From: Planctomycetota bacterium
Lineage (GTDB): Bacteria > Planctomycetota > Planctomycetia > Gemmatales > Gemmataceae
Direction: 5' to 3'
Length of the DNA: 39,278 nt
Assembly: GCA_017306025.1 (NCBI GenBank)
Contig: JAFKJJ010000545.1
Span: 1 to 39,278 of the forward strand
Shown here: piece by piece, positions 15,144-37,515 of the stretch
Layout of the letters: the number at the start of each line of letters is the position of its first letter
How positions within the stretch are numbered: position 1 is the stretch's first letter
The notes under the pieces: generated by a model
Seen by the model: only the letters and a program-made list of their open reading frames with translations
The model's database searches: none
What the model was told of the DNA's origin: nothing
Translations under genes and position numbers: made by a program

Positions 15144-18100
15144 GTGCTCGACGAGAAGCAACTCACCGACGACCTGCGCGGCCGGTTCCGGGGCCGGTTC
15201 CACTTCGACCGGCTCACGCGCGGGCTCTACTCCACCGACGCCAGCCCGTTCCAGATCGAACCGCTCGCGGTCGCGGTCCCCGAGGACGCCGAGAGCATCT
15301 CGGCGCTGGTGGGCCACTGCCACGGCCACAACGTCCCACTGATCCCGCGCGGGGCGGGTACCGGCCTGGCGGGCGAATCGCTCGGCCCGGCGATCGTCCT
15401 CGACCTGAGCGTTCATTTCCGCCGCGTGCTCGCGGTCGGACCCGACACGGTCACCGTTCAGTCGGGCGTGGTCCTCAACGACCTCAACGCGGAGCTGGCG
15501 AAGATCGGCCGCCGGTTCGCCCCGGACCCGGCCAGTTCCGCGACCTGCACCGTCGGCGGGATGATCGCGACCAACGCCAGCGGAGCCAACGCGTTCCACC
15601 ACGGCTACACGCGCGACTACGTGAGCGGGCTGGGCGTGGTATGGGACAGCGGTGAGGTCGATCGGGTGGGGGCGCGAACGGGGAACCTAACCCCCCGGCC
15701 CCCTTCCCTGTTTGGGAGGGGGAACCCAATGTTCCCCCTACGACCCCCTCCTCGGAAGGGGGAGCAAGCACTTGAAGCCATTGCAGATTCGCATGGCGGG
15801 GTAGCGAAAGCGAATTCCGAAGGTCTTTCTCCCCCTTCCGAGGAGGGGGTCGTAGGGGGAACATTGGGTTCCCCCTCCCAAACAGGGAAGGGGGCCGGGG
15901 GGTTAGGTCCTCCACGAACCGATTCAATCACGCGAGCCGTCAACGAGTTGCTGAGCGGCAACGCGGAACTCATCGCGACCACGCGCACGCGCACCTCGTT
16001 CGACCGGTGCGGCTACCAGCTCCACGGCGTACTCACGTCCGACGGCCCCGCCCTCGCGAAGTTGCTCGTCGGCTCCGAGGGCACGCTCGCGGTCGTCACG
16101 GAAGCGACGCTCCGCACGGTCCCGCTCGCCGGCGGAACGTGCCTGACGCTCCTCGGCTTCCCCACCCTCGACGCCGCGGTGCGGGCGGGCCTCGCCTTGA
16201 GGCAACACGGCCCCGTCGCGTGCGACCTGCTCGACCGCCGGCTGCTCGCGGTCACGCGCGGCGCCAACCTGCCCAGCGTCGGGGCGGCGCTGTTCGTCAC
16301 GTTCGAGGCCGACACGGAGCGCGCGGCGACCGAGCGCGCGTGGGGCGCCGTCGAGGCCCTGCGCCGCGAGCACGTGCTCCGCGCGCTCGCCGAGCCGACG
16401 TGCGACCCGGTCGGCACGGCCCAGATCCGCAAGGTGCGCGACGCGGCGGTATCCGGCCTGTACGCGGTCAGCGGGCCGCGCCCGGTCCCGTTCGTCGAGG
16501 ACGTGGGCGTTCCGGTCGACGCGCTGCCGGAATTCCTCACCCGCGTTCAGGACGTCCTCAAGCGGTTCGAGACGAGCGGCACGTTCCTCGTTCACGCCCT
16601 CACCGGTCAGGTCCACACGCGCCCGCTCATCGACCTCAACGACCCGGTCGACCGCGCGAAGCTCTGGCCGCTCGCGGAAGCGGTCCACGGGCTGGCCCTG
16701 TCGCTCGGCGGCACGGTGAGCACACAGCACGGCACCGGCATCGCCCGGACGCCGTGGGTCGAGCGCCAGTACGGCCCGCTCGTGCCGGTTTTCCGCGAAC
16801 TCAAGCGCATCTTCGACCCGAAGGGCGTTCTGAACCCCGGCAAGATCATCGGTCCCGACCCGAGCCGCGAGGCGTGGCCCCTGCGGCCCGAGATCAGAGG
16901 GCAGAAAACAGAGGACCGAAGCCCGGAGCCCGAGCCGCACGGCGAACCTGCTGAACTGACCGCCGATCTCAGCGCCCGGGCCTCTCTGCTCGTGTGGAAC
17001 GACTCGCCCGAAGCCGAGGTCAAGCGGTGCAACGGGTGCGGCGACTGTCGAACGCGAACCGTCCCGGAGCGGATGTGTCCGACGTTCCGGGCCACCGGGG
17101 ACGAGGCCGCGACCCCGCGCGGCATGACGAACGTGCTCCGCGTCCTCGCCGACCCGCAAGCTGCGACGCCCGACGAGGTGGAAGCGGTCGCGGAGCTGTG
17201 CATCAACTGCAAACAGTGCCGCGACGAGTGCGACGCGCGCGTGAACGTTCCCAAGCTGATGCTCGAAGCGAAGGCCCGGCTCCACGCCGAACACGGCCTC
17301 GACCGCGCCAACTGGGCGCTGGCCCGCGCCGAGTCCCTGGCCGCCATCGGCAGCAACTTCGCCCCGCTGGTCAACGTGCTGCTCGCGCGCCGGTCGGTGC
17401 GCTGGGTCGTCGAAAAGGTGTTCGGCGTCTCGCGCCGGCGCCGGCTGCCGAGCTTCGCGCTGCGCAACTTCTTCCGCCGCGCCCGCGGGATGGGACTCAC
17501 GAAGAAGCGCGGAGCACCGCAAGAACCGGACGTTCTGTCTTCGCCCCCCGCCCCCCGCTCCGGGTTTCGCGCTGAGAAAGTGGCCCTCTTCGTCGACGTC
17601 TTCGCGGCGTACAACGACCCGCTCATCGGCACGGCCGCGGCCGAGGTGCTCCGGCACAACGGCGCCGAGGTGTTCGTGCCGCCGCGACAGACCGGGAGCG
17701 GGGCCGCGGCGCTATCGCGCGGTGACCTCGATTCCGCGCGCGAGTCGGCACTGCGCAACGTGCGGGTGCTCGCCGACCTCGCCCGCGAGGGCTACCGCAT
17801 CGTGTGCCCGGAGCCGACCGCCGCGCTCATGCTCACGCAGGACTACCTCGATATCCTCGACGACCCGGACGCGGCCACGGTCGCCGCGCACACGGTTGAA
17901 CTCACCCGATACCTGGGCGAACTCCACGCGGCCGGCCGGCTCCGGACCAACTTCCACAAGCTCGACGTGACGCTCGGCCACCACATCCCCTGTCACCTGA
18001 AGGCGCTCCGCGGCCCGACGAGCGCCCCGGGGCTGCTGTCGCTCGTGCCCGGCCTGCGGGTCCACACGATCGACGCCGGCTGTTCCGGCATGGGCGGCAC

Positions 18101-18344
18101 CTGGGGGCTGAAGGCCGAGAACCACGCCACCTCGCTCGCCGCGGGAGCGGGAATGTTCGCGGAACTGGACCGCCCGCGGGTACTGTTCGGCTCGACCGAG
18201 TGCAGCACGTGCCGGCTCCAGATGCAGGAGGGCACCGGCAAGCGGACTTTGCACCCGGTACAGTACCTCGCGTATGCTTACGGGTTGTTGCCCGAACTCG
18301 AACCGCGGCTCCTCCGCCCACTCGGCCGCCTGGTGAGTGACTGA
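15144..18344 (+). CDS. GlcD-GlcF-like FAD and Fe-S oxidoreductase with in-frame palindromic insert
   Basis: This 1066-residue fusion joins an FAD-binding D-lactate/glycolate dehydrogenase to a GlcF-like iron-sulphur subunit. The N-terminal FAD domain shows VPLIPRGAGTGLAGES and CTVGGMIATNASGANAFHHG; the FAD-oxidase C domain ends near VSTQHGTGIARTPWVERQYG and IFDPKGVLNPGKI. Two 4Fe-4S motifs follow (CNGCGDCR...CP and CINCKQCRDEC), then two CCG-type motifs (HIPCHLKAL with GCSGMGG, and STECSTCRLQMQ). Residues about 180-255 are a foreign insertion from a perfect inverted repeat (15685-15908) that keeps the frame; it lies between SGLGVVWDSGEV and SITRAVNELL, a surface region in homologues. The start is GTG at 15144. 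The enzyme is probably still intact. The exact hydroxy acid is not determinable. Confidence 0.9.
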   Translation: MLDEKQLTDDLRGRFRGRFHFDRLTRGLYSTDASPFQIEPLAVAVPEDAESISALVGHCHGHNVPLIPRGAGTGLAGESLGPAIVLDLSVHFRRVLAVGPDTVTVQSGVVLNDLNAELAKIGRRFAPDPASSATCTVGGMIATNASGANAFHHGYTRDYVSGLGVVWDSGEVDRVGARTGNLTPRPPSLFGRGNPMFPLRPPPRKGEQALEAIADSHGGVAKANSEGLSPPSEEGVVGGTLGSPSQTGKGAGGLGPPRTDSITRAVNELLSGNAELIATTRTRTSFDRCGYQLHGVLTSDGPALAKLLVGSEGTLAVVTEATLRTVPLAGGTCLTLLGFPTLDAAVRAGLALRQHGPVACDLLDRRLLAVTRGANLPSVGAALFVTFEADTERAATERAWGAVEALRREHVLRALAEPTCDPVGTAQIRKVRDAAVSGLYAVSGPRPVPFVEDVGVPVDALPEFLTRVQDVLKRFETSGTFLVHALTGQVHTRPLIDLNDPVDRAKLWPLAEAVHGLALSLGGTVSTQHGTGIARTPWVERQYGPLVPVFRELKRIFDPKGVLNPGKIIGPDPSREAWPLRPEIRGQKTEDRSPEPEPHGEPAELTADLSARASLLVWNDSPEAEVKRCNGCGDCRTRTVPERMCPTFRATGDEAATPRGMTNVLRVLADPQAATPDEVEAVAELCINCKQCRDECDARVNVPKLMLEAKARLHAEHGLDRANWALARAESLAAIGSNFAPLVNVLLARRSVRWVVEKVFGVSRRRRLPSFALRNFFRRARGMGLTKKRGAPQEPDVLSSPPAPRSGFRAEKVALFVDVFAAYNDPLIGTAAAEVLRHNGAEVFVPPRQTGSGAAALSRGDLDSARESALRNVRVLADLAREGYRIVCPEPTAALMLTQDYLDILDDPDAATVAAHTVELTRYLGELHAAGRLRTNFHKLDVTLGHHIPCHLKALRGPTSAPGLLSLVPGLRVHTIDAGCSGMGGTWGLKAENHATSLAAGAGMFAELDRPRVLFGSTECSTCRLQMQEGTGKRTLHPVQYLAYAYGLLPELEPRLLRPLGRLVSD
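15685..15908. repeat. MITE-like palindromic element inserted in frame in a coding gene
   Basis: Two 80-bp arms (15685-15764 and 15829-15908) are perfect inverted copies around a 64-nt centre. The arms start ACCTAACCCCCCGG and contain GGGGGAACCCAATG and CGACCCCCTCCTCGG. Translated in the host frame, the first arm reads LTPRPPSLFGRGNPMF; the reverse strand also carries this peptide. The 5-bp direct repeats CGAAC at 15675-15679 and 15915-15919 are 240 bp apart (80 codons), so a 235-bp element with a 5-bp target duplication would explain the preserved frame. No transposase is present. Similar palindromes translated within genes are known as Rickettsia palindromic elements. Confidence 0.9.
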
Positions 18345-20118: not shown

Positions 20119-20258
20119 GAGTGCGGAACCCGGAACGCGGAGTGCGGAACGAAGACCGAAGAACGGAACGAAGCCGTGAGCGCACGAATCCCGCTACAAC
20201 TGACAACCGACGGCATTTCGGTTCTTCACTCCGCGCTCCGCACTCCGCGTTCCGCGCC
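20119..20258. repeat. Imperfect inverted repeat spanning the moaA start
   Basis: A purine-rich arm (about 20119-20167, with CGGAACGCGGAGTGCGGA) is inversely repeated at about 20218-20258 (with TCCGCACTCCGCGTTCCG). The 18-bp core is perfect and the rest about 75% by eye. Each arm is internally repetitive, with units of GCGGAGT and GCGGAAC. The left arm is intergenic; the right arm is translated as the N-terminal HSALRTPRSAP of MoaA. It looks like a dispersed repeat that has extended the gene's 5' end. Confidence 0.65.
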
Positions 20259-37296: not shown

Positions 37297-37302
37297 TGTT
37301 CT

Positions 37303-37371
37303 CTGTAGCCGGCCCGCTGACACCGGGACCAGACGAATAGTGTCGCCCCGGTTTCAACGGGCCGGCTACAG
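37303..37371. repeat. Inverted repeat after the dehydrogenase gene
   Basis: CTGTAGCCGGCCCG (37303-37316) pairs perfectly with CGGGCCGGCTACAG (37358-37371); inner segments (CACCGGG with CCCCGGT) pair partly. There is no clear T-tract. It may act as a terminator and is similar in character to the other GC-rich palindromes here. Confidence 0.7.
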
Positions 37372-37515
37372 AAACCGGGGTCTGCCGTGCCGATCCGGGG
37401 TCGGGTGTAGGTCGAGGCGGCCCGCTCACCGCACCCGCCCGGGACCGGATGCAAGGGTGCCGGCCGTCATCTCGCCGAACGCAAAAGCACAACGAACCGA
37501 CGACGAGGACCAACC

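Follow-up and report, generated by a model that had tools for sequence, protein, structure and literature searches.

The window examined here, a 39,278-nt stretch of a Gemmata-group draft genome, carries on its forward strand a gene for an FAD/4Fe-4S oxidoreductase of 1066 amino acids with a GTG start (15144 to 18344), recognized by its open frame, Pfam matches over the cut-off, and orthologues in 19 of 19 genomes of the genus, to which Gemmata sp. IIL30 also belongs. The enzyme class proposed in a first-pass annotation of this DNA was upheld by these matches, which place FAD_binding_4 at residues 40 to 175, FAD-oxidase_C at 334 to 568, and the 4Fe-4S domain (Fer4_8) at 625 to 699. At about residues 181 to 256, between these recognized parts, the protein carries an insert encoded by a palindrome consisting of a left arm of 80 bp (15685 to 15764, forward), a center of 64 bp (15765 to 15828), in frame and open by sequence and translation, and a right arm of 80 bp (15829 to 15908, reverse). 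The arms proved to be exact reverse complements, as the same annotation had stated, and its further statement that the frame stays open through both arms and the center also held, the GTG ORF being uninterrupted. When a few mismatches are allowed, the repeat extends to 15680 to 15773 and 15820 to 15913 (94 nt, 95%), and no longer inverted repeat was found in the window. Each arm reads as a chain of three small hairpins, which in the left arm are a REP-like hairpin with a C-rich stem and a 4- to 5-nt loop (15699 to 15722, forward), common to most copies of the family described below; an overlapping hairpin with an 8-bp perfect stem and a 5-nt loop (15718 to 15738, forward), also found in the copies on contigs C365, C604, C474, C288, C60, and C587; and a third hairpin (15744 to 15762, forward), also found on C365, C288, and C60. 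The predicted folding energy of the RNA from 15680 to 15913 is -222.4 kcal/mol; 200 dinucleotide shuffles averaged -110.1 (SD 5.8), and none of them folded as well (0/200; z = -19.5). An Rfam search of the window returned only a tRNA, with no match at the palindrome.

An AlphaFold model built from 30 homologues, with an alignment that excludes two sequences bearing an in-frame stop (L227, L249) and four distant ones (L245, L247, L248, L250), gave the host protein a mean pLDDT of 81.5. The recurrent insertion loop, codons 179 to 255 (15678 to 15908, forward), is predicted to be disordered, with pLDDT below 50, and lies between a strand at residues 172 to 176 and a helix at 258 to 272; we count this predicted disorder among the established points. 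The next stretch predicted to be disordered covers residues 585 to 611 (about 16896 to 16976 in the window).

Elsewhere in the window, an inverted repeat at 20131 to 20254 (38-nt arms, 84%) stands just upstream of a gene that we take to be moaA-like from its reading LRISVTDRCNLR, and its GCGGAGTGCGGAACGCGGAA-type arms resemble palindromes in the RecD2 loop of two other species (G014 and G018). An imperfect 33-nt inverted repeat with a 5-nt center (37302 to 37372), terminator- or REP-like, follows the end of an ORF.

The repeat family in the window genome

Searching the window genome (G000; a 6.64-Mb draft of 707 contigs, 82% complete) with the element yielded 111 matching pieces, which collapsed into 40 places. 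The usual copy is a C-rich hairpin present twice in inverted orientation, with feet ACCTAACC...GGTTAGGT and a center that varies between copies; single palindromes of 53 to 59 bp also belong to the family. The expectation that the element would recur in frame elsewhere was confirmed, since at least 10 of these places are in frame inside Pfam-supported genes (10/40, the matches either flanking the copy or enclosing it in a single domain). Copies lie inside one Pfam domain in PSD1 (C36), DUF7133 (C229), DcuC (C216), Flavoprotein (C36b), and PseudoU_synth_2 (C560), and between domains of one protein in the FAD gene (C576), ApbA (C474), RecD2 (C475), RsmB (C370), and a ketosynthase-acyltransferase (C596). 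For four of the 10 (FAD, ApbA, RecD2, and RsmB), comparison with single-ORF orthologues provided a further check, and seven further in-gene copies (C523, C120, C353, C689, C661, C659, and C10) are plausible but weaker. The supposition that the element itself is a whole number of codons did not survive, because foot-to-foot lengths of copies in, or probably in, genes are 224, 140, 175, 178, 139, and 174 nt.

An ORF spanning a copy was rejected as proof of intragenic position, as the copy on C666 separates two genes in relatives. At that locus (L027), an intergenic palindrome with an open frame creates one long artificial ORF over both genes, which constitutes an annotation trap.

That such palindromes could be an artefact of assembling a metagenome bin is suggested by the fragmented draft state of the window genome; yet palindromes of the same type lie inside genes in assemblies that comprise one to three contigs (G002, a single contig, G004, and G018) and in the Gemmata sp. 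IIL30 draft, and the unusual inner part of the window arms recurs on other contigs of the window genome and in G006. We consider an artefact scarcely credible.

Across 1.72 Mb sampled from seven genomes (76 to 83% coding by codon-model gene calls), 169 palindromes of all families reached the threshold, of which 141 lay in intergenic DNA, 16 within genes, and 12 at gene edges; 200 kb of G015 contained none. A Y1_Tnp match was found in 16 of 19 genomes. G013 and G015 are without one, and their loops in FAD, RecD2, RsmB, MoeA, and SbcC are short and contain no palindrome, whereas G002 has palindromes and no Y1_Tnp match, which counts against a simple link between the two. The gene-borne families were not found beside a Y1 transposase at 30 Y1_Tnp loci, where a comparison of shared 13-mers on incomplete contigs gave scattered short matches only. 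One RAYT-like Y1 transposase gene of the window genome (L105, on C146) is flanked on both sides by a short repeat of its own, distinct from the window family.

Recurrence at the same loops across the genus

Alignment of homologues confirmed the segment as inserted DNA when compared with congeners whose loops are short. As to whether all homologues carry it, a point raised against the insertion in the first-pass annotation, most congeners are indeed palindromic at this place, but several have unrelated families and five have none. An inverted repeat scoring at least 14 occupies the FAD loop in 11 of 19 species (G000, G002, G005, G006, G007, G009, G011, G012, G016, G017, and G018); isolated hairpins or degenerate arrays, both of the C-rich type, occupy it in G001, G004, and G010, which are palindromic by eye only (site scores of 8, 11, and 10); and the loop is palindrome-free in G003, G008, G013, G014, and G015. 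None of 20 more remote homologues covered by the scoring (L217, L221, L226, L228 to L230, L232 to L237, L239, L240, and L242 to L247) reached 14 at this site. At least four unrelated palindrome families are represented, namely the C-rich type to which the window family belongs, GCCGC-TTGCGGC-type hairpins in G009 and G017, a third family in G007, and TCATTCGTCATT-type units in G011. The sites of G017 and G009 had been candidates for empty loops, and inverted-repeat scoring ruled this out by revealing their short palindromes of another family.

On a 19-species gene tree built without the loop, these distributions imply at least eight changes among five states, with states assigned by eye from the sequences, and the sister groups G006/G009, G016+G005/G017, and G008/G010 differ in state across starred branches. 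Descent of each site's palindromes from one ancestor, with divergence past recognition, would account for the cases common by descent, such as the right half common to G001 and G002 and perhaps the FAD spacers of G005 and G016, which are 66% identical, yet shuffled spacers reach up to 73%. The families, however, differ over the whole arm within the same starred sister groups, and their distribution already contradicts this explanation, which we regard as very improbable.

Recurrence extends to other genes, tested with three more in-gene copies from the window genome as starting points. Counting as strong any palindrome scoring at least 18 and as recurrent any within 40 amino acids of the reference site, RecD2 has strong palindromes in 10 of 17 other rows, RsmB in 6 of 17, and ApbA (ketopantoate reductase) in 4 of 6, all of them recurrent, while FAD has 8 of 18 with seven recurrent; G018 (15) and G011 (14) fall under the threshold at the FAD site. 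The eighth FAD case is G007, whose best palindrome sits in the second disordered linker, at about reference residue 602, and which carries a second repeat, scoring 25, at the reference site. Over the four genes together, recurrence holds for 27 of the 28 strong palindromes, and in a codon-shuffle control 3 of 310 reached 18 and none (0/310) exceeded it. Rows split over contigs were dropped (RecD2 of G006, RsmB of G012, and ApbA of G010), and an ApbA orthologue is present in 8 of 19 genomes only. Within each of these genes, the palindrome families vary among species.

As an independent check, two gene-borne palindromes were picked from random stretches of non-window genomes (G002 and G018). MoeA (reference G002) has two unrelated palindrome types at one site, with 4 of 16 rows scoring at least 18 (the rows of G000, G009, and G011, partial or paralogous, were dropped), and in an SbcC-like gene (reference G018) 1 of 19 genomes has a palindrome and the other 18 are empty. 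Sites thus recur often, but not in every gene. The SbcC-like ATPase gene bearing an in-frame palindrome in that one species (G018, L342:10345-13671) encodes an enzyme of a kind that cuts DNA hairpins.

These patterns bring in an alternative in which insertion is random and the same loops recur solely as the tolerant places, with no preference for palindromes and no exchange. The loops are predicted by AlphaFold to be disordered, SbcC is filled in one genome only, and occupancy tracks genome load, with no palindromes at the sites of G013 and G015 and none in the sampled DNA of the latter.

Entry, replacement, and arm uniformity

The CGAAC copies flanking the palindrome (15675 to 15679 and 15915 to 15919, both forward, spaced 240 bp apart) had been read as a target duplication, and this found no support. 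Among 17 two-footed copies, the longest direct match between left and right flanks averaged 4.06 nt, identical to the 4.06 nt of re-paired flanks, with 222 of 400 re-pairings reaching the observed value; in the homologue alignment the right CGAAC lies within conserved codons, coding an Arg kept by nearly all homologues and a Thr kept by many. Inverted similarity between flanks, in contrast, exceeded chance (mean of 6.35 versus 5.05 nt; 0/400 re-pairings reached it), and the palindrome often extends into copy-specific flank. Together, these flank results are more in keeping with palindromes that enter hairpin DNA, or are copied from it, than with cut-and-paste transposition with target duplication.

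An older, degenerate palindrome is common to G001 and G004 at the FAD site. The palindrome of G002, which is sister to G001, is new and near-perfect, lies between the same conserved flanks, and makes the stretch 48 bases (16 codons) longer. By sequence comparison, G002 has swapped the older palindrome for a new one in place, the one such replacement shown. In RecD2 and MoeA of G001, a further small palindrome reads as nested in the loop of a C-rich one. A new palindrome between the flanks where relatives have an older one, nested palindromes, and inverted flank similarity above the re-paired level all argue against purely random insertion into tolerant places, to which we accord odds only somewhat short of even.

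The arms are also more uniform than expected. For arms common to species pairs, differences amount to 3/88, 1/46, and 0/46, against 179/526, 65/249, and 69/152 at fourfold sites of the same genes, and the centers of those pairs differ at 16/46, 23/46, and 6/60; in the RsmB loop of G010 and G014 (L192 and L198), for example, the arms differ at 0/46 and the center at 6/60, with 45% of fourfold sites different. Arm conservation thus lies above the plain expectation of neutral decay. Possible causes are renewed arrival, conversion among copies, and selection acting on the hairpin, any one of which might suffice. Under the last of these, an mRNA or DNA palindrome would be useful at linkers, through translation pausing between domains or mRNA stability, and any arrival would be kept. 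Several sites do lie between domains, the unrelated sequences are alike only in being palindromes, and the low arm divergence would follow. Palindrome-free species (G013, G015, and others), however, retain the genes with short loops, some insertions fall within single domains, and homogenization between copies or repeated arrival would equally hold the arms alike, so we judge such selection unlikely.

Taken together, we favor, with a probability of roughly 0.74, the view that these are REP/REPIN-like mobile palindromes that survive in genes only within permissive loops, which become sites of repeated landing and exchange. The window element would be one copy of a REP/REPIN-like (BIME-like) family of short C-rich hairpins arranged as an inverted pair. 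Copies would land widely and mostly be purged from genes, persistence requiring a net multiple of three bases, a stop-free frame, and a disordered loop. Because few such loops would exist in Gemmata-group species, unrelated families would come to occupy the same ones repeatedly, and a palindrome already in place may be overwritten (seen once, in G002) or take a nested one (as read in G001). We infer that movement may proceed via single-stranded hairpin DNA, by HUH/TnpA-REP-like transposition or template switching, that existing palindromes may be preferred as targets, and that the insert is probably neutral for the protein. In a stronger form, tentative and well below an even chance, the palindromes would constitute an exchange system in which a loop palindrome is the preferred target or template, unrelated families swap at fixed positions with the frame intact, and conversion or template switching maintains the likeness of the arms; if true, protein loops would serve as inherited docking sites for selfish palindromes.

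Because filled, empty, degenerate, and replaced states coexist in one genus, two questions become testable, namely how REP-like DNA can enter a gene and leave it functional and whether palindromes preferentially target other palindromes. The loops also provide a natural map of where housekeeping enzymes tolerate inserts of 20 to 110 residues, and they carry a warning for annotation, as proline-/glycine-rich inserts such as LTPRPPSL...GKGAGGLG probably represent translated mobile DNA, not domains.

Comparison with known palindromes

REPINs and BIMEs are mobilized by TnpA-REP (RAYT). The present family resembles them in its short hairpin units, inverted pairing, and variable center, as family copies and fold indicate, in its many and mostly intergenic copies (40 places; 141/169 for palindromes of all families), and in that no target duplication was found. 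It differs from TnpA-REP-mobilized REPINs in that no RAYT was found adjoining the gene-borne families at the 30 Y1_Tnp loci on incomplete contigs, and from classical MITEs in that target site duplication did not rise above the re-paired level among the 17 copies. Intragenic REPs tagged with GTAG or CGTC, in the accessible part of their description, are short hairpins and inverted dimers, mostly intergenic with some in frame, including in repair genes, and linkers and loops are suggested there as tolerant sites (PMC3733652). That part gives the GTAG-tagged REPs as per-species lists, without same-site reuse by unrelated families (PMC3733652), and the foot of the window family, GGTTAGGT, has TTAG where that superfamily has GTAG; GTAGG does occur in the palindrome versions of G002, G004, and G012.

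REPs are described, in the portion of that report available, as targets of insertion sequences, that is, as palindromic landing sites for mobile DNA (PMC1525189), whereas here the incoming DNA is itself palindromic and settles on, or takes the place of, a palindrome within a gene. Long perfect inverted repeats also lie open within functional mitochondrial genes of Nematomorpha, but their arms, according to the available text, code conserved protein regions (PMC6649704), where ours code a loop predicted to be disordered. The Rickettsia palindromic elements and the protein-coding palindromes of Wolbachia are given in the accessible text as repeats of about 100 to 150 bp that keep the frame of the conserved genes in which they lie (PMC2229807). 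Such in-frame residence is common to the Rickettsia elements and our family (10 of 40 places being Pfam-supported), and the differences from both lie in the phylum, in a sequence unrelated by inspection, and in the presence of several unrelated families at one orthologue site, one of them replaced in place.

No published Gemmata case was found in the literature searched, with subscription journals and preprints outside its scope, and in the accessible parts of these sources no precedent was found for same-site use by unrelated families or for in-place replacement. Earlier in-frame palindromes were mostly scattered single cases, whereas here the same loops are used genus-wide by unrelated families. 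As far as the available portions of these accounts extend, the precedents are thus the in-frame Rickettsia palindromes and intragenic REPs, and what is new is the use of the same site by multiple families together with replacement.
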